A stretch of DNA of 63,998 nucleotides from an uncultured Oscillospiraceae bacterium. Its GTDB lineage: Bacteria > Bacillota > Clostridia > Oscillospirales > Oscillospiraceae. The position numbers and the translations under genes were made by a program. Location: assembly GCA_934591845.1 (NCBI GenBank), contig CAKTPO010000012.1, positions 1 through 63,998 on the forward strand. The letters run 5' to 3'. Position 1 is the first letter of the stretch. Each line of letters starts with the position of its first letter. Below the pieces are notes generated by a model. It did no database searches and was not told where the DNA came from. It saw only the letters and a program-made list of their open reading frames with translations. Shown piece by piece: positions 46,048 to 63,998 of the stretch.

Positions 46048-47415
46048 TCAGTTGCTCTGGGCTTCCTGCTCCCGCCGTTTGAGGCAAACATAGTAAGCCG
46101 GCACCAAAAACAGGTCCGCCAAAACCCAGGCGGCAGGATTGGCGTAGCACACGGCGGTAAAGCCAATCACCGGCACCAGACCAATGGCCACCACACCCCG
46201 GGCGATCATCTCAGAAACTCCGGCGATCACTGCCAGATTGGAGTAGCCCAGGCCCTGAATGGTAAAGCGGTACAGGTTGACCCCCAGAAGCGGAATGTAG
46301 AAAGCGGCGTTGATCACCAACATCTGCCGGGCCAGGGGCAGAATTTCCGCTGCGGAGGCCGCATCCTTGGAGTCCAGGAACAGCCCCGCCATCTGGGCAC
46401 CGCCAAAATACATGGCTGCCATGGCAATCACAAAATAGATCAGCCCCAGAATGCCGCAGTCCCGTACCCCTTCCCGAACCCGGTCCAGCTTCCCCGCGCC
46501 CAGATTTTGTCCGGCGTAGGTAGCCGCCATGGTGCCCATGGCATCGTAGGGACAGGCAAAAAGGCATGTCACCTTGCCGGAGGCCGCCACCGCAGCCATG
46601 GCCACAGGCCCCAGACCGTTGACGGCGGTCTGCAAAAGAATGCTGCCAATGGCGGTAATGGAATACTGCATACCCATGGGAAGCCCCATGAGCAGCAGCC
46701 GATGGGCGCAGAAAGACCGAAGCTTTAAGTTCTGCCGGTGCAAATGCAGAATGGGGAACTTTTTGGCCATATAAACCAGGCACAGAAGTCCCGAGATCAG
46801 CTGGCTCACCAGTGTGGCCCAGCCTGCACCGGCCACGCCCATTTGCAGCCACACCACACAAACCAAATCCAGGGCCACATTCAACAGGCTGGAAAAAATC
46901 AGAAACAGCAAGGGCGTCCGGCTGTCTCCCAAAGAGCGGAGAATGCCGGAAAGGAGATTGTAGAGCATGGTTGCCGGAATGGCCAGGAAAATCAGGAAAA
47001 TATAGTCATAGGCATAGGAAAAGGTGCTTTCCGGGGTTTTCATGGCCGTCAAAATCCACCGGCAGCCCAGGGTGGTGGCCAGAGTGATCACCAGGGACAG
47101 CAGCACCCCCAGCCAAATCATATTGCCCACAAAGTCCCGCAGACCCTCATAGTCCTTTTCTCCGAATTTCTGAGCCACAGGAATGGCAAAGCCTGCACAA
47201 ATTCCATTGCACAGCCCCAACACCAAAAAGGAAATCGACCCCGTAGACCCAACCCCCGCCAGGGCCTCCATTCCCAGAAAATTACCGACCACCACCGTAT
47301 CCACCATGGCATAAAACTGCTGAAACAAAAGCCCCAGCAGCAGCGGCAAAATAAACGCCAGCAAAATCGGCATCGGCGCCCCCACGGTCATATCTCGCGT
47401 CCGTTCTTTCGGCAT
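46048..47415 (-). CDS. MATE-family multidrug/cation antiporter
   Basis: A 455-residue transporter with 12 predicted membrane helices in two similar halves. PILLAFILPLLLGLLFQQFYAMVDTVVVGNFLG near the start and MEALAGVGSTGSI are typical of the NorM/DinF superfamily. It exports drugs or metabolites using a sodium or proton gradient, or it may flip a lipid-linked substrate. The ATG at 47415 follows GGAGGGAG; a longer frame to 47469 would include the promoter. It is monocistronic, with its own promoter and terminator. Confidence 0.92.
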   Translation of the reverse strand: MPKERTRDMTVGAPMPILLAFILPLLLGLLFQQFYAMVDTVVVGNFLGMEALAGVGSTGSISFLVLGLCNGICAGFAIPVAQKFGEKDYEGLRDFVGNMIWLGVLLSLVITLATTLGCRWILTAMKTPESTFSYAYDYIFLIFLAIPATMLYNLLSGILRSLGDSRTPLLFLIFSSLLNVALDLVCVVWLQMGVAGAGWATLVSQLISGLLCLVYMAKKFPILHLHRQNLKLRSFCAHRLLLMGLPMGMQYSITAIGSILLQTAVNGLGPVAMAAVAASGKVTCLFACPYDAMGTMAATYAGQNLGAGKLDRVREGVRDCGILGLIYFVIAMAAMYFGGAQMAGLFLDSKDAASAAEILPLARQMLVINAAFYIPLLGVNLYRFTIQGLGYSNLAVIAGVSEMIARGVVAIGLVPVIGFTAVCYANPAAWVLADLFLVPAYYVCLKRREQEAQSN

Positions 47416-47459
47416 ACAACGCTCCCTCCAAATACAATAAATAGCTTTTTCAAGCGCAA

Positions 47460-47488
47460 ATAGTAGCACTATTTTTTCTCACTGTCAA
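47460..47488 (-). promoter_or_regulatory. Sigma-A promoter of the MATE gene
   Basis: On the minus strand TTGACA (plus 47483-47488), a 17-bp spacer and TACTAT (plus 47460-47465). Confidence 0.78.
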
Positions 47489-47618
47489 TCCGGGAAAATT
47501 ACATAAAATAGCATTCAAAATCCCCCGCCATCCTTGTCAAACCGCCCGCACCCTAAAAACCGCCTATTTTATCACGTTCTCCATATTCAAATTTTCCTCC
47601 ACTGCCCAAAAATATTTC

Positions 47619-47646
47619 TTGACATTTCCTATATTTATGCTATTAT
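47619..47646 (+). promoter_or_regulatory. Promoter of tRNA-Tyr
   Basis: TTGACA (47619-47624) with TATTAT (47641-47646) at 16 bp, or TTATAA two bases later at 18 bp, 30 bases before the tRNA. Confidence 0.75.
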
Positions 47647-47675
47647 AAAAAAGTTCTGACAAGAGTAGCATATCT

Positions 47676-47760
47676 GGGGGAATTCCCGAGTGGCCAAAGG
47701 GGACAGACTGTAAATCTGCTGCTTATAGCTTCGGTGGTTCGAATCCACCTTCCCCCACCA
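47676..47760 (+). tRNA. tRNA-Tyr (GUA anticodon)
   Basis: An 85-base class II tRNA with encoded CCA. The acceptor stem GGGGGAA pairs with TTCCCCC, the anticodon loop is CTGTAAA with GTA at 47710-47712, a long variable arm (GCTTATAGC) follows, and the T arm is GGTGGTTCGAATCCACC. The base composition changes sharply just downstream, so its 3' end is a plausible attachment site for the island that follows. Confidence 0.97.
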
Positions 47761-47765
47761 AACGA

Positions 47766-47817
47766 AAGAAATCCGAACTTCTTCCCTGTAGGGAACGGGT
47801 TCGGATTTCTTGTTTTT
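47766..47817 (+). terminator. Terminator of tRNA-Tyr
   Basis: AAGAAATCCGAAC (47766-47778) pairs with GTTCGGATTTCTT (47799-47811), with an inner TTCCCTGTAGGGAA hairpin, followed by T5. Confidence 0.88.
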
Positions 47818-48207
47818 ATCAGGGATATTTCCTATTAACCTAAATTCCCCGAAATTCTACCTACAATAATTTACGCAATTAAGAAAATCCTTTCAATTTA
47901 CAAATTCAGTAAAACCCCAAACTTTTTGAATAAAAAAATTCTAACTGTATAGTAGAATTCTGACAAATTATTAAAACAGAATATCTAAACATTTTGCGGG
48001 CTGATTCCTTTAATAATCAATCAGTTTCGGGAAAAAGAGATAATTTCCTTTCGGTATAGTAGAAAATTCCGGGAAGTAAGGTATTAAATACCGATTAGGA
48101 ACCCGGACGGCGCAACCCAGACGAACAAGTTTTAGACCCAAGTGTCAAAAAATGATTCCAAATAGCCAATCGTACTATTCCAAGAAACACCTAAAAGTTA
48201 GAAAAAA
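47818..48207. other. AT-rich gene-free segment at the island edge
   Basis: About 390 bases, clearly more AT-rich than the sequence before the tRNA, with stops in all frames. I see no gene, RNA or long repeat. It is the start of the foreign region and probably holds remnants of earlier insertions. Confidence 0.6.
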
Positions 48208-48710
48208 TGGGCGTGTTGCAAAATACGCCCATGAAAAAACCACATCACCATCCCCAAAGGGCTTGGTTGATGTGGTTTTTGCGTTAGAATTAAACTACCA
48301 TGAAAAACTCTGAAACGCAAACTCGGTATACCGCAGTTGAGCGAAATAATCAACTGGTTCTTATACAGAACAGTGAAATTAAATTGCCAGAGGATGCACC
48401 CGTCCGAGTGACCAGTGCCCAGCTTGAGGAACTGGACTACAGGAAACTACTGTACGCAGCGTATTCTTCCAGAGGAAGAAAATCGGTCACTGACCCACGA
48501 GTGATATTCAAGGTAATGGCATACGGATACCAATGTGGCATTTTTCCAGCCGAAAGCTGGAAGAAGCCTGCCAATATCGAGTGGACTTCATGTGGCTTCT
48601 GGAAAATCAGAAGCCACCGGATCATACTACCTTTTCTCGTTTTCGGACGGGCAGATGTACAGAGACGGTAGAATATCTGTTCAACCAGTATGTATCCTAA
48701 GCTGTTCTAT
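48208..48710 (+). pseudogene. Decayed IS1182-type transposase and left end
   Basis: An open frame from 48300 reads like the N-terminus of IS1182-family transposases: LPEDAPVRVTSAQLEELDYRKLLYAAYSSRGR..., then DPRVIFKVMAYGYQCGIF. Near 48545 the frame breaks; a shifted frame continues the same protein as RKLEEACQYRVDFMWLLENQKPPDHTTFSRFR up to about 48700 and then stops. Upstream lie a GGGCGT...ACGCCC hairpin (48208-48229) and an AACCACATCA...TGATGTGGTT hairpin (about 48238-48281), both plausible parts of the element's end. Only about a quarter of a transposase remains, so it is inactive. Confidence 0.8.
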
Positions 48711-48907
48711 TACGATAATAGCAGCAAGGGCAAAGTTGACTATCCGATTGATGATTATGACACCAATCCGCCATCTCCATTGAGGTGCAATCGGGCAAGG
48801 ACTACACCGTTCACAGTGTGCTGAACAGTTTTGTGAAAAGCAAAAACTATAATAGGAGGCTATTGTTCTTTCAAATGAGCGAACAGTCCAAACGACGAGG
48901 AAGATAA
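48690..48907 (+). pseudogene. Unrecognised broken coding remnant
   Basis: A frame from the ATG at 48690 (MYPKLFYYDNSSKGKVDYP...) breaks near 48778 and continues in another frame as IEVQSGKDYTVHSVLNSFVKSKNY..., ending at 48905-48907. Codon-like composition across the break suggests a former gene. I do not recognise the family. Confidence 0.4.
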
Positions 48908-48965
48908 CCTATCTGCCGATTTACTTTGTGACGTTCTTCTGATCCTGTAACAGAAATATGCCAGT

Positions 48966-48991
48966 GGCGGCGAGGTACGTTTCTCGCCGCC
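48966..48991. repeat. Strong GC hairpin in the AT-rich gap
   Basis: GGCGGCGAG (48966-48974) pairs perfectly with CTCGCCGCC (48983-48991). It has no T-run. The surrounding 48908-49309 contains no gene that I can support. Confidence 0.6.
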
Positions 48992-49309
48992 ATTTACTGA
49001 GTCTTTGAGTACAATCTGCATTTTCTCTTGCAGTAAAAGTAGCGATTTTCTCGGTCACAAATTTTTAGCAAATTGCCGTTTTTCATCTTGTGAATCAATA
49101 CATAAATGGAATAGCGCATTGCAACGATGACATGCAAGAGTGAATGGTTGAATTACTGGTACATTCAGCATGAAATGATAGTGACACCACCTCACATATC
49201 ACAACGTCCTATAATTCACTTTGTTCAGCCAGAAGCTGATAGATATACCGCGAAAATGATTGTCATTTGACTCTTAAAAAGCAAATTTATAAAACATGTG
49301 TATGGCAAA

Positions 49310-49338
49310 TTGACTTTATTCGACGTAAGCCGTATAAT
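49310..49338 (+). promoter_or_regulatory. Sigma-A promoter of the defence operon
   Basis: TTGACT (49310-49315), a 17-bp spacer and TATAAT (49333-49338), 110 bases before the first defence gene. It is the only good promoter seen before the five-gene cluster. Confidence 0.8.
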
Positions 49339-49447
49339 ATATCTTATATAGTTTTTACTATGATTTCTGTGATATTTGGAAAAATTAAGGGATACCATAG
49401 TATAACATGATAAAAGATGTGTGTCTGAATCGGCAAAGGAGGCCAGT

Positions 49448-50920
49448 ATGATAGAGAAAATTCAATCCATACCAGAAGCGAAATTATTACTGGCCTCGCT
49501 ACGCTCTGTGGGATATAATGAGGAAACTGCGATAGCAGATATTGTAGATAACAGCATTTCGGCACAGGCCCATGAAATAAAAATCGAATTTGACTGGGAA
49601 CAGAAACGAATTGTGATTTCTGATGATGGCTTCGGCATGAGCGAGAACGAACTGATTGAAAATATGCGTATAGGATCTTCTGATCCCAGCAAAATCCGAG
49701 CTGAAGATGATTTGGGGCGATTTGGTATGGGCATGAAGACAGCGGCATTCTCTCTGGGGAAAAAGTTAACAGTTATCACAAAATCAGGCTCTGCTGTGAG
49801 TAATGCCTCTTGGGATTTGGACCAGATTCCGGAGATTGGGTGGAATTTGATTATTCGGGACGAAAGTGAAATTTCTGAGTTTTTATCCCATATAGGCGAG
49901 CAGGGTACGATTGTTATTATTGAAAACCTGGATCGAGTGATTGACTTCGGTGACGAAAAAAAGGCCCAGAATAGATTTTATAGGATTGCAAGTAAAACGG
50001 AAAAACATTTGTCACTTACATTCCATCGATTTATTGAAGAAAATAATCTCATTCTGGAACTAAACGGCACTCCAATTAAAGCATGGAATCCATTTATTTT
50101 AGAAAATAGTGCAACTCAGGAATTGCCGGAAGAATCAGTTTTCTCAGATAATGGCTGTGCAGAGGTGACAATTCAGCCTTACGTTCTACCACATAAAACG
50201 AAATTTGCAACCGATGATGATTATCAGGCAGCAGGCGGACCCAAGGGATGGAATTATCACCAGGGTATTTATGTTTACAGAAACAGACGCCTGATTATCT
50301 GCGGAACATGGTTTGACTACATAAAGAAAGAGCCCGCATACAATTTGGCCCGCATTAAGATTGATATTACATCAGCCAGTGATGAGGACTGGAAAATTGA
50401 TATTAAGAAGTCAACAGCTTCTCTGCCCAGTTATGTCAGGGAATCAGTTGAAAGAGAGATTGATCTTTGTACTGAAACTTCAGCTCGTGTATACAATTCA
50501 CGTGGCAGTTACTCGAAGTCTAATGTCAGTGCTCCCAACCTGGATTATGTATGGGAGCAGCGAAAAAAGAATGGTCGATATTCGTTTCATATTAACAGAA
50601 AACATTCTCTGCTGAATAATATCAAGAAGCAGTTGGACGACCAGGGTAAATCAACGTTATCAGCATATCTCGCTCTGGTTGAGAATTTCGCACCGTTTAT
50701 GCAGTCCGGAGTAACAGATTCTCTTCAGAAAGGAAAAGTTGGCGGAGAGTCTGATAAGACCTCTTTGGAATATCAGGTACAAATCAAAGAATTGAAAGAT
50801 ATGATTATGGTTTTCTTGTCGCAGGGATTTACCAAAGAAGAAACGCAGTCTACGCTGTTGGACATGGCTAATTATAGACATCTCCGAGAGGAGATTATCA
50901 GGCTGGTGGAGGAAGCATGA
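49448..50920 (+). CDS. MORC/MutL-like GHKL ATPase of the defence system
   Basis: A 490-residue protein whose first 150 residues carry a GHKL (Hsp90/MutL/histidine-kinase) ATP site: N-box DIVDNSISA (31-39), G1 DDGFGM (59-64) and the lid motif LGRFGMGMKTAAFSLGKKL (89-107). The pattern is that of prokaryotic MORC/MutL-like ATPases rather than a sensor kinase: there is no membrane segment or phospho-acceptor His domain. The C-terminal half is unrecognised. The ATG at 49448 is preceded by a perfect AAAGGAGG; a GTG at 49421 is weaker. It overlaps the Z1 gene by 4 bases. It is probably an ATP-gated clamp that senses or remodels target DNA. Confidence 0.9.
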   Translation: MIEKIQSIPEAKLLLASLRSVGYNEETAIADIVDNSISAQAHEIKIEFDWEQKRIVISDDGFGMSENELIENMRIGSSDPSKIRAEDDLGRFGMGMKTAAFSLGKKLTVITKSGSAVSNASWDLDQIPEIGWNLIIRDESEISEFLSHIGEQGTIVIIENLDRVIDFGDEKKAQNRFYRIASKTEKHLSLTFHRFIEENNLILELNGTPIKAWNPFILENSATQELPEESVFSDNGCAEVTIQPYVLPHKTKFATDDDYQAAGGPKGWNYHQGIYVYRNRRLIICGTWFDYIKKEPAYNLARIKIDITSASDEDWKIDIKKSTASLPSYVRESVEREIDLCTETSARVYNSRGSYSKSNVSAPNLDYVWEQRKKNGRYSFHINRKHSLLNNIKKQLDDQGKSTLSAYLALVENFAPFMQSGVTDSLQKGKVGGESDKTSLEYQVQIKELKDMIMVFLSQGFTKEETQSTLLDMANYRHLREEIIRLVEEA

Positions 50921-53748
50921 TGATTAATACGCCGAAAGAATTGAGTGATATTGAAGTTGGTTTGTATAAGAGCGGATATGGGTTTTGTGAGAAGCTTGTA
51001 AAAGAAGAACATATGACTATTGCGGCAGCAGTCGAGAAAACAGCAGCAAAATTTGCCGGTTTAAATATGATTTCTGATATGGAATGTTTTAAAACGTTCC
51101 TGTTCAGTGAAGTGACCGCTTACACAGAACCTTCTATTGGCGTGTGTGACCCAAATCTGGAAGATAAGACTTGGTGGGATGAGCTCAAACAAGATCCGAA
51201 ATTCAAACCGGAATATTGGAGCCGTTACTATGACTATCTACTGAGGAAGCCCTCTTGGAGCATTACTGCAGTAGAAGATATTAATTCCTCTACGGACGAG
51301 ATCATGAATGCTTTGGCCAACCCCCGCAAAGGTGCGGCTATTGAACGAATGGGCATGGTATTTGGTTATGTCCAGTCCGGTAAAACGGCCCATTATATCG
51401 GCATGATCAATAAGGCCTATGATGCCGGATATCGCATTGTCATTGTACTGTCGGGTATCCATAATAGCCTCCGCAGCCAGACCCAGTCCCGTATTGATGA
51501 AGAAGTTCTGGGATACGAAACGAGCCTGGAATACATCGGAGACATGACACGGGAAAGAAACGTGATCGGAGTTGGTGCTGGCCCTCATAATCAGGTGGAC
51601 ACGGTGGTCCAGTCCATTACGACCAGGGACGAAAAGGGCGACGTCAATAAAAAGACGGAAGGCGTATCCATGATGCCTCCGTTTATGATCGTCACGAAGA
51701 AAAACGCTTCTGTTCTGCGGAGAATCCTGCGATTTTTCCGAAAAAATCACTGTGCAGAGATCATTGGCGGCAAGAAGAAAATACCTGCCAAGTATCCTGC
51801 TTTGATTATTGATGATGAGGCGGATCAGGCCTCCATCAACACGAAGGAAAGCTATGACGATCAGGGAAATGTTTTGGATGACTACAATCCCACGACGATC
51901 AACGGACTGATTCGTGAACTGCTGGGCATCTTTGAATGTCGATCCTATATCGGCTATACTGCAACGCCCTTCGCCAATATTTTTATTCCTCCTCATATTG
52001 ACGATGAAAAATATGGAACAGATCTTTTCCCCAGAGACTTCATTTACAGATCTCCGAGGGCGGATCAGTATGTGGGCGCAAGAGAGTTCTTTGGATTAGG
52101 CAATGAGGAGGATATTCCTACCATGCCGCTCTATCGGGAAATCGTGGATGGAGCCTCCTATCTTGGCAAGGGAACGAAATCCACTGATGTTGTGGGCGAG
52201 CTGCCTAAGGGGCTGAAGCTGGCAGTAAAATACTTCCTCCTGTCTACAGCGCTCAGAAACTGCAGAGGACAGCACAATAAGCCTAACACCATGCTGGTTC
52301 ACATCGTCCGCTTTGTTGGCCAGCAGAATAAGGTCAAACAAAAAGTCCAGAAATATTTCAAAGAAGAAATTGAACACTATATTCGCTATGGTGATCCCAT
52401 TATTGAAAGCGAACTGAAATCTATTTGGGAGGAAGACTATCTCCCCACTACGGGCAAAATGAGAGCGCAGTTCAACAAGTATATGTCCGGCTGTGACGAT
52501 GTCAGCTGGGACTGCATTTGGGCTGAAGTAAAGCGTCTGATTGTGGACAAAGAAATCAGCGTTTACAGCGTTAATGGCAAGAGCGAAGATGTGCTGCTTT
52601 ATAAGAACCATGAAGGAAAACCCTTCAATGTGATTGTGATTGGCGGCGATAAACTCTCCAGAGGCCTGACACTGGAAGGCTTGACGGTCAGCTACTTCAC
52701 CCGCAGCTCCAATACATACGACACCCTTATGCAGATGGGCCGTTGGTTTGGCTTCCGCCCTGGCTATCTGGATGCCTGCAGACTGTTTACCACGCCCACT
52801 CTCTATGCAAGCTTCTCTCATATCTCTATGGCTACGGAGGATCTCGCCGGACAGTTTGATTTTATGAACAGTGTCGTTCAAACGCCGAGGGACTTTGGCC
52901 TGCGTGTTGCTTCTCATCCGACGCTGGAAATTACCAGCCGCAATAAGATGAGAACCGGCCAGGAGTTCAAGCGTGATTTCAGCTGCAAGCTGAGCCAGAC
53001 CCGTGTTTTTGACATTGATGGTGAACAGTACGACAGAAACTTTGAAGCTGTAGAAGACCTTTTGTATGCGATTAAAGGGTGCCGAATTACGGCAGAACAG
53101 TATCAGCTGAAACTTGGCAGAAAAGCTCCTGGTGATCATTTCTTCTATCAGGATGTCTCTGCTCACGATGTTGCGAATTTCTTTGAGAGTTACGAAACAT
53201 CTAAAACTGCGACCAGAGCAAACAGCAAGTACATGGCCGACTATATCCGTACCATGAACGCAGATGGAATCGGCGGCGTCAAATCCTGGACGGTTTGCCT
53301 GATTAACGTGGAAGGCCACGGAAAAGCATTTGATATTGCGGATCTGAAGGATGTGGGCGGCGGTATTTACAGAAAAGAAGGTTCCGGTGTGGACTCTTAT
53401 GAGACGACTTGCTCCATTCACACCATGACATCTGCTGACCATGAGTATTTGGATTACGACAAGGCGGCATATGACCAAGCTCAGGAATTGAAGGAGAAGT
53501 ATAAGAGCGATCCTTCTAAAACGAAGATCAATGAAATTATTCGAAGAGAAACAAGACCGTTTGCGAATGGACTTCTGATTCTCTACCCGATTGGAAACGC
53601 TGGAAAACTAACTGCCGAACGGGGAGATCATAAGCCTCCCTTCGGCTTTGCAGCCGTCTTCCCTGATCGGAAGAACAAGGGTGATCTCAAGTCCTACCGC
53701 ATGAACGATATTGCATTGGAGAAAGACAGCGATGAGCTTTACGGCTGA
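50917..53748 (+). CDS. Z1-domain superfamily II ATPase/helicase of the defence system
   Basis: A 943-residue protein. The N-terminal 130 residues are followed by a helicase core: Walker A GYVQSGKTA near 150-158, Walker B ALIIDDEADQ near 295, GYTATPF near 346 (motif III-like), and the Z1-specific block GGDKLSRGLTLEGLTVSYFTR near 575 with QMGRWFGFRPG near 606 supplying the arginine finger. This is the Z1 superfamily II ATPase found beside MORC-like ATPases and endonuclease-fold proteins. The C-terminal 250 residues are of unknown fold. It most likely translocates on DNA. The start overlaps the GHKL stop; the end overlaps the PD-(D/E)XK gene by 17 bases. Confidence 0.93.
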   Translation: MMINTPKELSDIEVGLYKSGYGFCEKLVKEEHMTIAAAVEKTAAKFAGLNMISDMECFKTFLFSEVTAYTEPSIGVCDPNLEDKTWWDELKQDPKFKPEYWSRYYDYLLRKPSWSITAVEDINSSTDEIMNALANPRKGAAIERMGMVFGYVQSGKTAHYIGMINKAYDAGYRIVIVLSGIHNSLRSQTQSRIDEEVLGYETSLEYIGDMTRERNVIGVGAGPHNQVDTVVQSITTRDEKGDVNKKTEGVSMMPPFMIVTKKNASVLRRILRFFRKNHCAEIIGGKKKIPAKYPALIIDDEADQASINTKESYDDQGNVLDDYNPTTINGLIRELLGIFECRSYIGYTATPFANIFIPPHIDDEKYGTDLFPRDFIYRSPRADQYVGAREFFGLGNEEDIPTMPLYREIVDGASYLGKGTKSTDVVGELPKGLKLAVKYFLLSTALRNCRGQHNKPNTMLVHIVRFVGQQNKVKQKVQKYFKEEIEHYIRYGDPIIESELKSIWEEDYLPTTGKMRAQFNKYMSGCDDVSWDCIWAEVKRLIVDKEISVYSVNGKSEDVLLYKNHEGKPFNVIVIGGDKLSRGLTLEGLTVSYFTRSSNTYDTLMQMGRWFGFRPGYLDACRLFTTPTLYASFSHISMATEDLAGQFDFMNSVVQTPRDFGLRVASHPTLEITSRNKMRTGQEFKRDFSCKLSQTRVFDIDGEQYDRNFEAVEDLLYAIKGCRITAEQYQLKLGRKAPGDHFFYQDVSAHDVANFFESYETSKTATRANSKYMADYIRTMNADGIGGVKSWTVCLINVEGHGKAFDIADLKDVGGGIYRKEGSGVDSYETTCSIHTMTSADHEYLDYDKAAYDQAQELKEKYKSDPSKTKINEIIRRETRPFANGLLILYPIGNAGKLTAERGDHKPPFGFAAVFPDRKNKGDLKSYRMNDIALEKDSDELYG

Positions 53749-54739
53749 TGTTTATAAAGAGATATTATCCGACATATCTGCAGGGGCAGGTCAGCCTTCC
53801 TCGTTTGCAATGCGTCTGGTGAAGTTCGACAACGGCATTATGGTTGCCTTTGCAGTCAATATTGCTACAAGAATGCGTTCAGCGTTTTTGTCTGTGACCT
53901 CAGAAGCGCCTAAAAGCAGATTCCCGCACTGGAAGGGCGTCGAAATTGAAACGGCTAAACTTCCGGCGTATGGAATTGAGACGCCTTTTGTGGAGCTGTC
54001 CCAGCTGCCGAACAGTGCCAGCGACATTTTTGAGATTGTTGTTGAGGATCTGAGAATCCAGCTGGAGGCCGCAGCAAGCGCTGAGGACGCCCTTTCTGTG
54101 ATTATCAAGGTCCTGACAAAGTGGAAAGAGTTCTTTGCTGCTGATAAAGAGCTGCTGATGTCTGAAGAGCGCCAGCAGGGCCTTTATGGAGAGTTGCTGT
54201 TTTTAAGCGAGAGCCTGGATTCACAGGGGCTTGAAGCTGTGTCTCATTGGGCTGGCAGTGATGATGAAACCCATGATTTTTACTTTGGGGCTCATGCGGT
54301 TGAAGTCAAAACGACCTCGACACAGGCCCCCTATTTTGCCAGTATCAGCAGTGAATATCAGCTGGATAATGGCGATATTCCGGGATATCTGTTCCTGCGA
54401 TTTTATGCACTTCGCAGAAGCCGCAGCGGCGGAGAAAAGCTGTCGGAGCGTATTGCTGCAATCCGCAGCAGATTATGTGAGGATGCAGCTGTTCTGCGTA
54501 AGTTTGACGAAAAACTGAAGAAATACGGCTATTTTGATGAAGCTGCAGACAGCTATACCATCGGGTACTATCAGCGTGATCATTATTGTTTTGGCGTTGA
54601 GAATGGATTCCCGAGAATCATAAAAGAAGCGGTTCCGCTGGGTGTTGCTGATCTTACATATCGAGTCAGCATCATGCTGTGTATGCCGTTCGCAAAAGAA
54701 ATGAAATCTGTATTTGAAGTTTTGAAAGGAGGGGCCTGA
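53732..54739 (+). CDS. PD-(D/E)XK nuclease-fold protein (DUF4420 type)
   Basis: A 335-residue protein with an endonuclease-fold core: GLYGELLFLSE near 150-160 (conserved Glu), HDFYFG near 181 (Asp) and AVEVKTTS near 189 (Glu-x-Lys), spaced as in PD-(D/E)XK enzymes. It matches the family listed as PD-(D/E)XK motif protein/DUF4420. It is the likely DNA-cutting subunit of the system. The ATG at 53732 lies inside the end of the Z1 gene, preceded by GGAGAAAG; an ATG at 53711 is possible. It ends one base before the AIPR gene. Confidence 0.9.
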   Translation: MSFTADVYKEILSDISAGAGQPSSFAMRLVKFDNGIMVAFAVNIATRMRSAFLSVTSEAPKSRFPHWKGVEIETAKLPAYGIETPFVELSQLPNSASDIFEIVVEDLRIQLEAAASAEDALSVIIKVLTKWKEFFAADKELLMSEERQQGLYGELLFLSESLDSQGLEAVSHWAGSDDETHDFYFGAHAVEVKTTSTQAPYFASISSEYQLDNGDIPGYLFLRFYALRRSRSGGEKLSERIAAIRSRLCEDAAVLRKFDEKLKKYGYFDEAADSYTIGYYQRDHYCFGVENGFPRIIKEAVPLGVADLTYRVSIMLCMPFAKEMKSVFEVLKGGA

Positions 54740-54740
54740 T

Positions 54741-56510
54741 ATGGTAAATGAGAAGATTCTTGAATTCTATGAAGAATTACGAGAAGAAGTTCTTGGATAT
54801 GTCAAAGAAAACGGCCCTATTTCTACGAATGCTGCCTTCAAAACACTGTTCCTGTCCTACCTTACAGAAGCAGGCGAAACTCTTGTTTCAGACTGCACAC
54901 TGGTGGACTTCAAAAAAGACAGCGAAAATATGAAGCTGGACGGTTATGCGTTCAGCGAGTATTTCCATTCCCTTACTCTGCTTGTGAGTAAGTATCAGGC
55001 AAAACCTAAGCCTGAAAAGGTGAAAAAGGCCGAGATCGATAAACTCCTAAAAAAAGCACTGAAGTTCTTTAAGACCTGCGGTACTTCCTCTTTTGAAGCA
55101 CTGGAGTAGTCCAGTGACGGATACCAAGCATATGGGTTTATCCGATCCCACAAGGCTGACATTGAAACCGTCAACATTATTCTTCTGACCAATGATGAAA
55201 CGATCCAGTACATTCCCGAAGATACGCACCACGGAAAGGTGTCGATTCGCTTCGATGTTTGGGATATTGAGCGGCTGTATCAGAGTGTCCTTGGCGGAGC
55301 TGCCGTGGAGCGTCAGCTCATTGTGAAGCTGAAGAAAAAATATGGTGCTTCTCTGCCCTTGATTAAGGTCAAAGGCGATAATAAAGTTTATGACTGTTAT
55401 ATTGGCGTCATTTCTGGTGAGCTTCTGGCTCGGATCTATGAAGTTGAAGGACAAGATCTGATTCAGAAAAATGTCCGCTCGTTCCTGCAGGCAACCGGCA
55501 AGGTCAACAAGGGAATCAAGGTGTCTTTGGCTAATGAACCTCAGATGTTTATGGCCTACAACAACGGCATCTCTACGGTTGCTGACAGCATCGTCATTGA
55601 TGAAAGTCAGAGCAGCGGGGATGTTGTGACCATTACAGAGATTACCGGATGGCAGATCGTGAATGGCGGTCAGACGACGGCATCCATTTACAATGCCTAC
55701 AAGTCCAAACTTCCCCTGGATCAGGTGAATGTACAGATCAAACTTTCTGTTATCAAGCAGAAAGAACAGGCGGAGGACATTATTCATAACATCTCCAAGT
55801 ATGCGAACAGCCAGAACAAAATCAATATGTCTGACTTCAATGCTAACGACGCATACCATGTGAAGATGGAACGCCTGTCCAGATCCACGCCGATCCCTGT
55901 GGCTAAGGGTAAATCGACGGATTATTGGTTCTATGAGAGAGCCAGGGGCCAGTATCTGGTTGAACTGAACCGGCAGCCCACAGCAGCTGCTAAAAAGGAA
56001 TTCAAGGCCAGATGTCCGAAGAACCGTTGTATTTCCAAAACGGTTGCTGCAAAGTGCGTCATGGCTTATCAGGGCTATCCGGATATCGTCAGCAAGGGCC
56101 TGGAAACCAGCTTTGTCTATTTCTCGGATATGATCTCTAAAGGTGAGTTCCCTGAACCGTCTGAGAAGAGTTACATTGAGATGATTTCTAGGGTGATTCT
56201 GTTCAATAACTGCGATGAAATCATTAAAAATTTGAAATTTGGCGGTTTCAAGGCGCAGCAGGACTATTATACCGTAGCGCTGATTGGAAAATATCACTCA
56301 GCTTTAATCAATCCGCAGGAAATCTGGAACAACCAGACGATCAATGCGGAAACGGCAAAGGTCATCGAAGAATTGGCCTATTTTGTGTGGGAACATTTTC
56401 AGAATCCCACAGTTCCCGGTGTCAATATCGGGCAGTGGTGTAAGAAGGAAGACTGCTGGGAACTGCTTCAGAGCCGTTATGAAGCAAAAATGGATAAGCG
56501 GGAGAATTAA
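54741..56510 (+). pseudogene. AIPR-family protein gene interrupted by one in-frame TAG
   Basis: Reading one frame from 54741 to 56510 gives a 589-codon protein interrupted only by a TAG at 55107-55109. The first 122 codons (MVNEKILEFYEELREEV...) run to SSFEALE, and the same frame continues SSDGYQAYGFIRSHKAD... into a complete AIPR (abortive infection phage resistance) domain: QKNVRSFLQATGKVNKGI, AYNNGISTVADSI, WQIVNGGQTTASIYNAY, ISKYANSQNKINMSDFNAN. No internal start with a good ribosome site follows the stop (the GTG at 55239 has GGAAAG directly against it). AIPR proteins are recurrent but poorly understood partners in phage-defence and restriction loci. It is either a nonsense allele or is read through. 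Confidence 0.88.
55099..55116 (+). repeat. Perfect hairpin around the AIPR stop codon
   Basis: CACTGGA (55099-55105) and TCCAGTG (55110-55116) pair perfectly; the 4-base loop GTAG holds the in-frame TAG at 55107-55109. Confidence 0.9.
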
Positions 56511-56515
56511 GAAAA

Positions 56516-58135
56516 ATGCCATATTCAGTAGTGGATCTGTTTGCAGGGGCCGGTGGGTTAAGTCTCGGATTCGTGCAAACAGGAAAATATGAGATAAAAG
56601 TTGCTTTTGAAAGGGAGCCACACATGCAGGCAACATATCATCAGAACCATCCAAATGTTGAGTTGCAAGGGGATGTGTGTAGCGCAGACTACGCAGATAT
56701 ACAGAGGAGATACGGCTCCATTGACGTTGTCATTGGAGGCCCCCCCTGCCAAGGGTTTTCAAATGCAAATCGACAGAAAAACCATGCAATCAGCCAGAAT
56801 AATATGCTTGTAAAGCAGTATATTCGAGCAATTAGAGAGCTGCAGCCAAAGGCTTTTGTAATGGAGAACGTCAGTATGCTTCGATCTGAGGTCCATAGGT
56901 TTTATATGGAACACGGAGATGAGGAAACGGTTAAAAAATGCGGTATTCCTGTAAAGGAAACTTCGCTTCATCTTCTCAGTGCAAAATTTTTATTTGATTC
57001 CGCAATCGACATCGTTCAGAACGAACAGGAAATTACAAAACACCTTTGGCCAGAGGAAGATTATTTTGAGCTAAATGTAATATTCAAGAACTCGAAGAAC
57101 CTTCCCAAAATGAAGGCGGCTCTTGATAAGCACAAGTTCAAACTTCTGCGAGCAGCAGAAATTCATCTAAAAAATGAATCCAATGATCATATTTCGTCTG
57201 AAACACGGAAAGCCTTCAAGGCTATCACCTCGTACTATGATGGTAAAGAAACTGCTGAAAAAGTAATAGAGGCTATTGAGCCGGCAATAATGATTCAGCG
57301 GATGCTCAGTATGGCTCAAGAAATATTCCAGAATAATATCATTGTTGATTCGTTTTCACAAGAAGATGGCCTTTCTGCAAACATAAGGTCTTTTGCGGTG
57401 TTTGACTACTTAACCGGAATTCTAGGTGCTCCGGATAACGACTATGTAATAAACAGCGATGTCCTCTGTGCAGCTGATTATGGTGCACCTCAAAAACGAA
57501 TGAGATTCGTCGTAATAGGCATTAAACGTTGCATAGCGACCAAAATTGCATTGCCCAAAGGCCGTTTTGATGAGGATGAATACCGGACGGTAAGAGATGC
57601 TATTGCGGATCTCGAGACGGTGTTACCGGTATATGACCTAGAAGCGGATAAGGAAGGCATTAAAGTCGATACAATCGGCGGATTGAATGAACTCGCTACC
57701 TCTTTACGGAATTCAGGAGTATTAAAGAATCACATTATTACAAAAACAACAGAAACTGCCATGGAGCGGTTTAAGGCAATCAAGCAAGGACAAAATTTTC
57801 ATTCGCTTGATGATGCATTAAAGACAAATACTTATACCGACGTATCCAGAACACAAAACACAATTTATTTGCGCCTGGATTACGATGAGCCAAGCGGAAC
57901 AGTTGTAAATGTTCGCAAATCAATGTGGATTCATCCGACGCTCGACAGAGCTATCAGTGTCCGAGAAGCAGCAAGACTGCAAACTTTTCCAGACAGCTTT
58001 GTATTCTGTGGTTCTAAAGATAAGCAATACCAACAAGTTGGAAACGCTGTTCCTCCTATTATGGCAAAGTCTATAGCAAAGAAGCTGGCACGAACACTAT
58101 CGAAGAATTTGACTAAAGAGAATGAAAATGACTGA
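56516..58135 (+). CDS. DNA (cytosine-5) methyltransferase
   Basis: A 539-residue C5 methyltransferase. Motif I VDLFAGAGGLSLGF (6-19) binds AdoMet, motif IV GGPPCQGFS (74-82) has the catalytic Cys78, motif VI is MENV (116-119), motif VIII QKRMRFVVIG starts near 326, the target-recognition region is about 340-460, motif IX covers the REAARLQTFPD segment and motif X is QQVGNAVPPIMAK near 505. About 165 extra residues sit between motifs VI and VIII compared with compact enzymes such as M.HhaI. It starts 5 bases after the AIPR gene, so it belongs to the operon and should protect host DNA. A decayed Vsr gene follows, as expected for a C5 enzyme. Confidence 0.95.
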   Translation: MPYSVVDLFAGAGGLSLGFVQTGKYEIKVAFEREPHMQATYHQNHPNVELQGDVCSADYADIQRRYGSIDVVIGGPPCQGFSNANRQKNHAISQNNMLVKQYIRAIRELQPKAFVMENVSMLRSEVHRFYMEHGDEETVKKCGIPVKETSLHLLSAKFLFDSAIDIVQNEQEITKHLWPEEDYFELNVIFKNSKNLPKMKAALDKHKFKLLRAAEIHLKNESNDHISSETRKAFKAITSYYDGKETAEKVIEAIEPAIMIQRMLSMAQEIFQNNIIVDSFSQEDGLSANIRSFAVFDYLTGILGAPDNDYVINSDVLCAADYGAPQKRMRFVVIGIKRCIATKIALPKGRFDEDEYRTVRDAIADLETVLPVYDLEADKEGIKVDTIGGLNELATSLRNSGVLKNHIITKTTETAMERFKAIKQGQNFHSLDDALKTNTYTDVSRTQNTIYLRLDYDEPSGTVVNVRKSMWIHPTLDRAISVREAARLQTFPDSFVFCGSKDKQYQQVGNAVPPIMAKSIAKKLARTLSKNLTKENEND

Positions 58136-58165
58136 CAATCATCCAAAAAAGTTCGCAGTATAAAT

Positions 58166-58424
58166 ATGTCTCATATTCGCAGCAAAAAACAGAAACAGGA
58201 GAGATTAGTGCACAAATACCTATTCCCAAAAGGGCTTGATATTGGAAGAATGCTAAGCGCAGCCAGGATGCCCGGATATTGTTCTGCTGAAATGCAAAAC
58301 AGTTATCTTTGTGAACGGCTACTTCTGGCGCATACACGATTACCCACGATTTGTGTAACCAAGCTCAAATGGAGATTATTGGCATTCTAAAATCATGAGT
58401 AATGATGATGAAGTGAAAAAGTAA
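58166..58424 (+). pseudogene. vsr: Decayed Vsr very-short-patch-repair endonuclease
   Basis: Three frames together spell a Vsr protein. From 58166: MSHIRSKKQKQERLVHKYLFPKG; from 58240: YWKNAKR; from 58263: PGCPDIVLLKCKTVIFVNGYFW..., then a TAA at 58356-58358, then PSSNGDYWHSKIMSNDDEVKK to a stop at 58422. Two frame changes and one stop, plus loss of the usual His/Cys near NGYFWRIHDY, mean that it is dead. A further remnant may reach about 58465. Vsr nicks T:G mismatches arising by deamination at sites of a partner C5 methyltransferase, which is the gene just upstream. Confidence 0.88.
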
Positions 58425-58744
58425 TATTGTTGAACTGTAGCATCTTGGTTGGAACGCACTAACAGTATATCTTGTTAATTCGTACCGGGTTCTTCTAACG
58501 AGAGTACGCCAAGGAATGCTACTGTTCATCCCTAAAGGTCTTTATCGGAAGATGAGCCGACAAGAGACATGAAATACTACGATGGGATTTATGTGTATTT
58601 GCTTTCGTGTGGAATAAAAGAATTGGTAGATTAATTTTACCATTCGCTCATAAAGACACATGAATCTATTAATAAGCCAGCACTGGTAACAGAGAGTTTT
58701 CATGGCACATGTTTCGAGAAGTTAAAAAAGGTGTGAATACATAT
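58425..58744. other. Gene-free segment between vsr remnant and the SEC-C gene
   Basis: About 320 AT-rich bases with stops in every frame. The first 40 bases may be the end of the vsr remnant. I see no convincing promoter or RNA structure, although the downstream gene must be expressed from here if it is independent of the operon. Confidence 0.5.
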
Positions 58745-61108
58745 ATGAAGGCAAAGACTGACGATTATTTCAATAATGGATTTTTTGAGATTGCGAGAGT
58801 GGACAACAATATCATCCACCGTAATGTTTTACCTTCGGATAAACAACAGGAGCTTTTGGACTGTTTGGCGAAACAAGAATCTGTTCTGAAAAAAGAAATT
58901 AACGAACTAGTTCAAACGATTCGCCATGATGTGGTTCAATGTGATCCGCTGCAACTATTGAACTATTCTCAGATGATGTTTCTTCAGTCGATTTTGGGTA
59001 CATCATCTGAGTCTCAACTTATGGGCGTTGAAAATATAGCTGTTGCAAGAGCAACGGAGTACATTCAAAGTATTTTTGTATCTTCTCAATCCGATTTCCA
59101 CGAAGCACAAGGTGATCCTACAAAAACTTTTTCCAAGATCAGCGCTGATATTGAAAAATTGTACCAATTAGTTACACAATATTACTTTGCTTATGGAGCT
59201 ACATATAAAAAGGATCACGAAAACGACTGCGAAATATTGGATGAACTGATAGAAGCGCAAATGTTTTATTCAGTTCGGGGAGAGAGATATCAATGCTTCG
59301 AGGAAGAATATAATAGATGCTTGCTTAGCCCACACAACGATGTTTTCATGAGATTGTTTGGCCTATCAAGCCAGAACATCGTTGATGGCATCAGTAAATT
59401 GCTATATGCGCTTTCACAAGGCCGATTTGATTCAGGTAATGAACTTGTGAAAATGTTTGATAGCTTGAAAAGTGTCCCGGAAGGTTACCTTGAAGAATTT
59501 ATGGAATCTCAGAAGGCCAAAGGGCAAGAACTGATTCAGAAATTCATGGGAACCGAACTCAACGATGTTTGTAAGATAACAGGATGGAATGAAGCGTTTG
59601 TTGATGAACTTTCTTTTGGACTTAATGAGTGCGGGGAATTCTGGAATCAAAAAGATTACGCAGGGTGGCCGGTAATTGATCTTCCAACATCTAAGCGTCC
59701 TTTTATCAAGATCGACAATCAATATTACTGCTTTGACTATTACTCCCTTTCTGATCATATTTATCGGGCTATTCAAAAGACTATCACCCGTTTGGACAGT
59801 ACATATTCATGGAGTAGAGTGCAAAATGAAGCAAGCGAATCAATGGTTGAATCGGTATTTCAGAAATTGCTTCCAGGTTGTACTACTAACAGAAATAACT
59901 ATTATCCTATAAATGGATCATTAAAGCGTTTGTGTGAAAATGATTTGATTGTCCAATACGATGATGTACTATTCATTGTGGAGGTAAAGGCCAGTTCATT
60001 TGCCTATACTCCGCCACTTACGGATTTTGAAAGTCATATTAAATCATATTGTAAACTAATCGAAGAACCAAATTCGCAATGCGTAAGAACAAAGGATTAT
60101 CTGTCCTCTCGCAAAATAGCTAAATTTTATAATGAGGACAAATCTGATAAGTTTTTAATTGATATGTCAAGCATCACAGATATCGTCATGTTCTCAATAT
60201 CTGTAGATAACATTAACACTTTTGCTTCTCATGCAGAGAAATTGAGTTTTATCAAAACCAAGTGTGGCGCAATATGTATTGCGATAGACGATTTGATGGT
60301 ATATCAGGATTATTTTGATTCTCCTTTAAAATTTATCCATTTTTTAAAGCAACGCATGAAAGCCTCATTGCTACCTGCGCTCGTTACAACAGATGAATTA
60401 GATCACTTGGGTATGTATATTGAGCATAACTGCTATTCAATGTGCTTTGAAGGCAGTGATGCGAGTAGAATAAATCCTGTTGGTTATCGCAAGGATCTGG
60501 ATGTATTTTACGGTCAAAGATTCCATCCAGAGTTGCATCCAGAAAAGCCGAGTCAAAACCTCCCGCCTTTATTTGAAGAAATTATTAGCTTACTGGAACG
60601 AAATGAATCAAAAGATAGAATAGCATTCTCGGATTATTTGCTGAACTTTTCTTCTGAAGCAAAAGAACAATTTGCCGAAGAAGTATTACATACTTATGAG
60701 GATCAAAAGAAAACTCATAGGAGCAAAATTATAACTACAGCCGGGAGGAATGAAAACGATCTGAGATATTCATGCTTTATTTTTCAACCCGATGTACCAG
60801 CTATATCAAATAGCGAACAAGAAGAGTATATTTGGTCAAATATGTTATGGAATGAAGAAAAGAACAGAATAAAAATCAATATAACATTTGACGATAGAAG
60901 AAGGATTATTGATATAGGTTATTCATGTTTTGATGAGAAAAGCATCCCTCTCGACAGGCGAGATATTTTATTAGAGCAAGGAAAAACGAGAGCAGCAGAA
61001 CGAATACAAAAATATCGCAATGTTAATGGAAATAAAATAGGCCGAAATAAACTTTGCCCATGTGGGAGCGGGAAAAAATACAAAAAATGTTGTGGCCGCA
61101 ATTTCTGA
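58745..61108 (+). CDS. Large PD-(D/E)XK-like protein with C-terminal SEC-C zinc motif
   Basis: A 787-residue protein. The N-terminal 300 residues are helical and unrecognised. A nuclease-like core is suggested in the middle: conserved Glu in the helix NEASESMVESVFQKLLPG near 365-380, then NDLIVQYDDVLFIVEVKASS (Asp near 399, Glu-Val-Lys near 412). The C-terminus is a textbook SEC-C motif, GRNKLCPCGSGKKYKKCC (about 768-785), a zinc knuckle that binds protein or nucleic acid. The ATG at 58745 follows AAAAGGTG; an ATG at 58709 has no such site. It is the most AT-rich gene of the island, so it may have arrived separately. It is probably an additional effector, but unproven. Confidence 0.75.
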   Translation: MKAKTDDYFNNGFFEIARVDNNIIHRNVLPSDKQQELLDCLAKQESVLKKEINELVQTIRHDVVQCDPLQLLNYSQMMFLQSILGTSSESQLMGVENIAVARATEYIQSIFVSSQSDFHEAQGDPTKTFSKISADIEKLYQLVTQYYFAYGATYKKDHENDCEILDELIEAQMFYSVRGERYQCFEEEYNRCLLSPHNDVFMRLFGLSSQNIVDGISKLLYALSQGRFDSGNELVKMFDSLKSVPEGYLEEFMESQKAKGQELIQKFMGTELNDVCKITGWNEAFVDELSFGLNECGEFWNQKDYAGWPVIDLPTSKRPFIKIDNQYYCFDYYSLSDHIYRAIQKTITRLDSTYSWSRVQNEASESMVESVFQKLLPGCTTNRNNYYPINGSLKRLCENDLIVQYDDVLFIVEVKASSFAYTPPLTDFESHIKSYCKLIEEPNSQCVRTKDYLSSRKIAKFYNEDKSDKFLIDMSSITDIVMFSISVDNINTFASHAEKLSFIKTKCGAICIAIDDLMVYQDYFDSPLKFIHFLKQRMKASLLPALVTTDELDHLGMYIEHNCYSMCFEGSDASRINPVGYRKDLDVFYGQRFHPELHPEKPSQNLPPLFEEIISLLERNESKDRIAFSDYLLNFSSEAKEQFAEEVLHTYEDQKKTHRSKIITTAGRNENDLRYSCFIFQPDVPAISNSEQEEYIWSNMLWNEEKNRIKINITFDDRRRIIDIGYSCFDEKSIPLDRRDILLEQGKTRAAERIQKYRNVNGNKIGRNKLCPCGSGKKYKKCCGRNF

Positions 61109-61253
61109 TTTTTTCGGCGAGATAATTACATATTTCTATCAAATAGAAATAGAAATGACCATTTTTTGGAAATACGGGGCTTAGAATGTTCCCGGATAAG
61201 TGATCCGTGCTTACAGATTCACTGCTTGTTAGGCCAACTTAATATTATGAGAA

Positions 61254-61293
61254 AAGCCCTTTCCAATATATGGTCGGAGAGGGCTTCCCTTTT
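61254..61293 (+). terminator. Hairpin, probable weak terminator
   Basis: AAGCCCTTTCC (61254-61264) pairs with GGAGAGGGCTT (61276-61286) with one wobble, followed by CCCTTTT. The whole gap 61109-61426 has no gene; an ATTTCTAT...ATAGAAAT hairpin lies near 61130-61148. Confidence 0.55.
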
Positions 61294-61426
61294 GCCCATC
61301 TATCAAAAGTTGTAAATCCGGATTTTGCACATTGGTAATTTTTCCTCGTATTTGCTACCATATATGCGATGAGAAGCAGCAGAGTTATGACTTCAAACCA
61401 TCTGAAAGTGAATTGGAGGGACACAT

Positions 61427-61771
61427 ATGGAAATCACCTATACACTTGTCGGGGACTATTATCTCCCCAATCTGGCTGCACCGGAAAGCCCTAAGGTAGG
61501 CCGTTGGGGGATGCTGCGCTTCAACTATTTAAGGAAACATCGTGAGGCACTTTACACCATAATGCTTATGGAGAACATGCTGAATCCCCACCTGGAAGAA
61601 ATTGACCGTCAGGCGCAGGAAATGGAGCAGCAGCTTATTTCTCAGCTGGCACAGCAGGAGGGCATTACCGAGCAGCTGAAAGCGGAAAATCAAATGGATT
61701 GGGTAGCCCGGATGAACAGTATTCGGAACCGGGCAGATGAAATTGTTTTGAATGAACTGATTTTTGCCTAG
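61427..61771 (+). CDS. tnpV: TnpV, transposon-encoded protein
   Basis: A 114-residue protein matching the TnpV family: MEITYTLVGDYYLPNL at the start, GRWGMLRFNYLRKHREALYTIMLMENML in the middle, then a helical stretch LEEIDRQAQEMEQQL and MDWVARMNSIRNRADEIVLNELI at the end. TnpV proteins occur on transposons and conjugative elements of Clostridia; their biochemical role is not established. GGAGGG precedes the ATG. It marks the passage from defence genes to mobile-element backbone. Confidence 0.9.
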   Translation: MEITYTLVGDYYLPNLAAPESPKVGRWGMLRFNYLRKHREALYTIMLMENMLNPHLEEIDRQAQEMEQQLISQLAQQEGITEQLKAENQMDWVARMNSIRNRADEIVLNELIFA

Positions 61772-61883
61772 AAAAAGCATATAGCAAAATCGCCATGGTG
61801 TGTACTGATTCTATCAGTCGCACCGTGGCGGTTTTTGTCATTTCTCACAAAAATAATTTATTTTCAGAAATCATATTAAAAAA

Positions 61884-62315
61884 CGGCCCGCCTCGATGGC
61901 TACTTAAGTGAGGGGGAAAATACTTTAAGGAAATACACTAACAAAACCTCATTTTTGCCGCGATAGGTGAGGGGATAGTATCCCACGGTGCTTCGTCGAA
62001 TTTTACAAAAATGAATTATTTTCCGAAACATGTAAAAAATCGGTCTGTTTCGTGGGCTCAATATATGAGGGGATTTGTGCAGGCTTTATGAAATTGAAAA
62101 AATCTTGAGAAACACCTTTACTTTTGCCCATTCTGGATGCCTACCAAGTGAGGGGGTATTTGAGTAGCTTACATGAAAAATATTTGAAAGCATGTAAACT
62201 TTTGGCCTACTTCAATGCCTACCACATGAGAGGTATCTCTGGCCCGAAAATATTTTTTGCAAAACACCCTCACAAAACCCCATTTTTCCCGCGATAAGTG
62301 AAGGGGTATTGCTCC
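61884..62315 (+). repeat. Cluster of six degenerate direct repeats (iterons; candidate parC or origin)
   Basis: Six copies of a core close to AAGTGAGGGGGTAT start at about 61906, 61965, 62064, 62145, 62224 and 62295, spaced 59-99 bp. Several are preceded by a longer shared unit; the second and sixth share AAAACCYCATTTTTSCCGCGATARGTGARGGG almost base for base, and the fourth and fifth share a GATGCCTACC/AATGCCTACC lead-in. Direct repeats just before a parM-parR-like pair are typical of a type II partition centromere (parC); a replication origin is the alternative. Confidence 0.75.
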
Positions 62316-62370
62316 TCTCAATGTACCTTGACAAGTTCATAATCATTCATCTGATACATTCTTCCCCACC

Positions 62371-62560
62371 CGAGCCGGAAGGCCGTGCGCCATGACCATT
62401 TTATGCGAGCGACAACCACGGGCCTCCACTGCCAGATAGCAACCGGCATGGCGACGACGGCGGGGCAGGACAATGATACTTCTCGAAAGAACTGGGCGGA
62501 AGCGCAGGGGTGAGACTCCCATGGACCTGATTTGCTATCGGGCGTCAGATGAATCCAAAG
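62371..62560 (+). ncRNA. Candidate structured RNA/leader upstream of parM
   Basis: A GC-rich block between AT-rich repeats and parM. GGAAGGCCGTG (62377-62387) can pair with CACGGGCCTCC (62417-62427) with single bulges. GCC-A-GATAGCAA (62431-62442) pairs over about 90 bases with TTGCTATC-G-GGC (62532-62543), 11 bp with one mismatch. GGGGTGAGACTCCC lies inside. No open frame explains the conservation-like complexity. It could be an RNA leader controlling parM or a DNA site; I do not recognise a known family. Confidence 0.45.
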
Positions 62561-62618
62561 CGCACGGGGGCGAGGGCGAATAGGTGCGCAAAAATCTTAA
62601 TTTTGAAAGGAAAATCAA

Positions 62619-63542
62619 ATGAAAAACAAAAACGGAGTTTACATCATCGGTATTGACCACGGCTATGGCAACATCAAAACGGCGAACTGCTGCTTTCCTA
62701 CCGGTGTGGAGCGCAGCGACATGGAACCGACTTTCAAGAACGATTTGCTGATTTATCAGGGCCGTTACTACCAGATTGGCGTTGGGCATAAGGAATACGC
62801 CGCTGAAAAGGTCATGGACGAGGACTACTACATCCTGACTCTGGCGGCCATCGCCCGGGAGCTGAGCAGAGAACAAATCACCCAGGCAAATGTGTTTCTG
62901 GCGGCGGGGCTGCCCCTGTCCTGGGTGGTGAAACAGCGGAAGGCGTTCCAGGCGTACCTGCTACAGAATCGTGAGGTGGAGTTTTCTTTTCGGAGAAAGA
63001 ACTACCGCATCAGTATTGTAGGTGCAACAGTCTATCCCCAGGGATTTGCCGCAATCGCACCCATTGTCAACCACTTCACTGGCAGCAATATGCTCTGCGA
63101 CATTGGCAATGGTACCATGAACATTCTGCGCACTATGGACAGCAATGTGGATTTGCGCCAGATGTTCACGGAAAAGTATGGTGTGCAGCAGTGCGTCTTG
63201 GCTGTCCAGGAGGCCCTTATGCGGGAACATCACGCCGAACTGGAGGAACAGATGATCCACAATTTCTTGCGGTACGGTACAGTCGGCATCGACGAGGAAC
63301 TGGAAAAGACCATGAAGTTGACAGCCAGCGACTATGCGAAAAAAGTTTTCCGCAAGCTCCGGGAGCATGGTTACGATCCCCGGATTATGAGACTCTACGT
63401 GGTGGGCGGTGGTGGCTGCCTGCTGAAAAATTTCTTCCCCATTGCCCCTGACAAAATCATCATTAACAGCGACATTTGCGCCACGGCCAAAGGCTACGAG
63501 TACATGGCCGAGGTAAAAAATGTGACGGGAGGCGTGAAATGA
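62619..63542 (+). CDS. parM: ParM/StbA-family actin-like ATPase
   Basis: A 307-residue actin-fold protein: phosphate 1 IIGIDHGYGNIKTA (9-22), phosphate 2 MLCDIGNGTMNI near 164-175 and adenosine-binding YVVGGGGCLLKNF near 268. It should form ATP-dependent filaments that push replicated plasmid or element copies apart. AAAGGA precedes the ATG. Upstream lie the iteron cluster and a possible RNA; downstream a small DNA-binding-like protein overlaps the stop by 4 bases, completing a ParMRC layout. Related proteins are common on integrative conjugative elements of Firmicutes, so this marks the mobile backbone. Confidence 0.9.
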   Translation: MKNKNGVYIIGIDHGYGNIKTANCCFPTGVERSDMEPTFKNDLLIYQGRYYQIGVGHKEYAAEKVMDEDYYILTLAAIARELSREQITQANVFLAAGLPLSWVVKQRKAFQAYLLQNREVEFSFRRKNYRISIVGATVYPQGFAAIAPIVNHFTGSNMLCDIGNGTMNILRTMDSNVDLRQMFTEKYGVQQCVLAVQEALMREHHAELEEQMIHNFLRYGTVGIDEELEKTMKLTASDYAKKVFRKLREHGYDPRIMRLYVVGGGGCLLKNFFPIAPDKIIINSDICATAKGYEYMAEVKNVTGGVK

Positions 63543-63862
63543 GGTCCACAAAAACCACAATACGCTTCAAGCTGTCCCGTGCCGAGGATGCCCGTGCGCT
63601 GGAATATCTGAGGAATCGGAAAGCGGCGGGGAGTTCTTTCAGCAAATCCGTGGTGCAGGCCATCAACGACTGCTTGGATGCCCAAGAGGCAGAAAGCAGA
63701 GAGGACTCCTTCATGGGCAGATTCCGGCTGATGCTTCGGGAAGAACTGAAAGGGGTTGGAAATACAGTTTCTTTTCAGCCTGTTTCGGAGCCGTCCCAGC
63801 AGTCGCAGGAAAACGCTGAGCAAACGCTGGCGTTTTTGGATGCTTTCGACGGCATGGAATGA
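63539..63862 (+). CDS. ParR-like small ribbon-helix-helix protein
   Basis: A 107-residue protein. The N-terminal 45 residues (TTIRFKLSRAEDARALEYL, then SFSKSVVQAIND) fit a ribbon-helix-helix: one strand and two helices, a fold used by ParR adaptors. The C-terminal half is acidic and Gln-rich and may contact ParM, as ParR tails do. It starts inside the end of parM (ATGA). An earlier ATG in the same frame at 63476 lies within parM and has no ribosome site. The partition role is inferred from position and fold. Confidence 0.7.
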   Translation: MRSTKTTIRFKLSRAEDARALEYLRNRKAAGSSFSKSVVQAINDCLDAQEAESREDSFMGRFRLMLREELKGVGNTVSFQPVSEPSQQSQENAEQTLAFLDAFDGME

Positions 63863-63998
63863 GAAAATGACGGCGTTTTTCCAGAGAAATGCCATCGCTG
63901 CACGAACATTCCCAAAGCTCCACCGTCGCATTTGATGGTTTGTGACGGCAAAATTGGAAAACACGGTGGCAATTTTTCCCGAAACCGCCGTCAGAAAG
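63863..63998. other. Right edge of the window, no gene seen
   Basis: The last 136 bases contain no complete gene or clear signal. The repeated word GACGGC/GCCGTC occurs several times and could form weak hairpins. The element continues beyond the window. Confidence 0.5.

Follow-up and report, generated by a model that had tools for sequence, protein, structure and literature searches.

An Oscillospiraceae operon of a previously described, predicted anti-phage kind, apparently partly defective, with a methyltransferase gene that relatives seem to swap as a cassette

We analysed 63,998 nucleotides of an uncultured Oscillospiraceae bacterium (contig CAKTPO010000012.1, positions 1 to 63,998; the window) and found that an operon near its end is a predicted anti-phage cluster of a kind previously described. 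The copy in the window looks partly defective, and its methyltransferase gene seems to be exchanged among relatives like a cassette. The original prediction of five adjacent defence genes was, with two corrections, largely borne out: all five were found, the AIPR gene being interrupted by a stop. Comparisons covered 57 related loci, with 37 core loci used for methyltransferase position and 38 loci for motif patterns. The genes and the adjoining remnant are:

49448..50920, + strand: GHKL (MORC-like) ATPase, MzaB-like (Pfam HATPase_c_3, 8.3e-34; PADLOC MzaB, 2.3e-78)
50917..53748, + strand: second operon gene, originally called a Z1 superfamily II ATPase
53732..54739, + strand: DUF4420 PD-(D/E)XK protein, MzaD-like (Pfam, 4.1e-59; open from TTG 53711)
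54741..56510, + strand: AIPR gene, MzaE-like, interrupted by an in-frame TAG at 55107-55109
56516..58135, + strand: cytosine-5 (C5) DNA methyltransferase (Pfam DNA_methylase, 2.5e-61; NCBIfam dcm, 175.8 bits, cut-off 100.65)
58142..58403, + strand: decayed remnant of vsr, the gene for a very short patch repair endonuclease, split over two frames (58142-58237; 58263-58403)

These matches uphold the earlier GHKL, PD-(D/E)XK/DUF4420 and cytosine-5 methyltransferase calls. The GHKL start was set at the ATG following AGGAGG, the longest open reading frame (ORF) running from GTG 49421, and the top PDB sequence matches of this protein were human MORC4 and MORC3. With a described MORC-type system the operon shares the MORC GHKL protein, the superfamily II helicase (DThhQXuRhFG) and the E-D-ExK protein; Dcm and Vsr are frequent in that system and AIPR is named in its figure legend, whereas the window has an AIPR gene with a stop and a decayed vsr. 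The helicase motif reads DTLMQMGRWFG here, and its pattern occurred in 34/38 loci against 0/38 reversed sequences. E161, D189, E198 and K200 of the DUF4420 protein (E, D, E-x-K) were kept in 38/38 loci. The degenerate MORC motif is also present (GIYVYRNRRLI), but its pattern, found in 37/38 loci, matched 32/38 reversed sequences and is thus unspecific. All five components of the putative defence system Type II of Miller et al. (2022; PMC9523054) are in the window, AIPR interrupted; the part of that paper describing Type II does not name Vsr, and it prints the nuclease domain as 'DUF4220'.

MzaB-E of the MZA system (mzaABCDE; Gao et al. 2020) were the best family matches of the operon proteins (PADLOC, NCBIfam), and the order B-C-D-E is common to both. 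The window differs from MZA in having a methyltransferase and in lacking the MzaA sigma factor, for which no match was obtained at 1e-3 in positions 47000-63998. MzaA-like ORFs lay upstream of the core in 8/57 loci (L049, L066, L067, L069, L070, L071, L082 and, as a short ORF, L058), which by sequence would be the true-MZA-like branch.

The stop splits the AIPR gene into a 122-residue N-terminal ORF and a second ORF (55239-56510), which carry AIPR_N (4.2e-18) and AIPR (1.1e-83) in Pfam. A sequencing or assembly error in an otherwise intact operon would account for a stop known from one window only, for the retention of all remaining conserved positions compared, and for the finding that AIPR is full-length in the top 120 of the 7999 relatives scored. 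We consider such an error improbable: the adjoining vsr, recognized by tblastn with the Vsr of L001 (1.2e-22), has decayed by more than one lesion, and decay at this locus is therefore real. The AIPR frame is open in L001-L003, and vsr is intact at the equivalent place in these loci and in L048. Of the methyltransferase, AIPR and vsr genes, the first alone is intact in the window, and all three are intact in L001-L003.

The methyltransferase, of about 540 residues with a long segment separating motifs VI and VIII, retained 21/21 conserved positions. The expected co-occurrence of a methyltransferase with the core was confirmed in 36/37 core loci, the fetched stretch of the sole exception, L067, reaching the contig end. 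It lay upstream in 13 loci, downstream on the same strand in 17, downstream on the opposite strand in 5, on both sides in 1, and was unseen in 1. The core could defend independently of methylation by sensing something other than an unmodified site, the methyltransferase (with or without Vsr) being a separate, commonly linked cassette. The lack of a methyltransferase among the named mzaABCDE genes, the variable placement and the type II endonuclease adjoining the methyltransferase in some loci favour this, but the near-constant linkage and the observation of the full-length type of the window solely next to the core oppose it, and we regard it as possible though rather unlikely. Alternatively, the methyltransferase might be the sequence-reading subunit of a restriction complex, like HsdM/HsdS of type I systems, so that swapping it re-targets the core; linkage, the observation of this type solely next to the core and the long motif VI-VIII segment would fit, yet we hold this to be quite doubtful.

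The earlier functional reading, in which the methyltransferase marks self DNA and the core attacks unmarked DNA, was partly supported, and with the copy in the window impaired we regard a reading along these lines as moderately likely. Several points weigh against it. The named MZA genes comprise the MzaA sigma factor and B-E without a methyltransferase in the passages of PMC9523054 concerned, and therefore the core may not need a mark. Scores were far below all four NCBIfam equivalog cut-offs (bits/cut-off: MzaB 322/850, MzaC 610/1500, MzaD 133/420, MzaE 311/1050, the last for the C-terminal ORF, with 31 further bits from the N-terminal one). No function was readable from the AIPR structural model, and correlations with the methyltransferase were weak, not nil (GHKL 0.33, AIPR 0.33). 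In VcSduA (GHKL-Shedu, paraMORC3), which resembles the operon, the GHKL ATPase is proposed to control the PD-(D/E)XK nuclease and both are required for defence (PMC12137116). CglI/NgoAVII (PMC4267653) is without GHKL or AIPR, and its PLD-type nuclease carries a B3 domain. The Prevotella intermedia system Pin25611FIII, compared by its description in PMC5608340, has a 1083-base methyltransferase and a C protein.

The flanking features are:

49310..49338, + strand: promoter-like site TTGACT-17-TATAAT, 139 bases upstream of the first ATG
58709-61108, + strand: SEC-C protein, 799 residues
61427-61771, + strand: TnpV (Pfam), downstream of the operon
62619-63542, + strand: actin-like ParM/ALP protein (Pfam ALP_N, 2.1e-13)

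The predicted consensus promoter is present as an 11/12 match, but such sites were not enriched over shuffles and none equally good was found in 7 relatives. The operon follows tRNA-Tyr (47676-47760) and has 44.5% G+C against 55.8% in positions 1-47500 of the window, consistent with carriage on an acquired island. It may travel on TnpV-bearing elements, since a TnpV with 39% identity lies upstream in L002 and ORFs in L057 and L065 cluster with that of the window. The ParM/ALP gene suggests a plasmid or integrative element downstream. Positions 48300-48900, between tRNA-Tyr and the operon, resemble a decayed transposase when judged by eye; they gave a weak PADLOC LmuA match (2e-4) and none in Pfam. 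The SEC-C gene occurred in 0/57 related loci. Its product has 315 homologues at E 0.001 and an E-N-D...E-x-K segment invariant over 44 aligned relatives. Its AlphaFold model (predicted template modelling score, pTM, 0.83) had no PDB match at E 0.001; the top one was Upx, a protein of phage defence (9wuf; probability 0.99, E 2.6e-3, template modelling (TM)-score only 0.22). The SEC-C protein is a candidate Upx-like nuclease separate from the operon.

In the literature, surveyed mostly at listing level, we noticed no report of cassette-like exchange of the methyltransferase. We regard this apparent cassette behaviour as the most useful result of the analysis.
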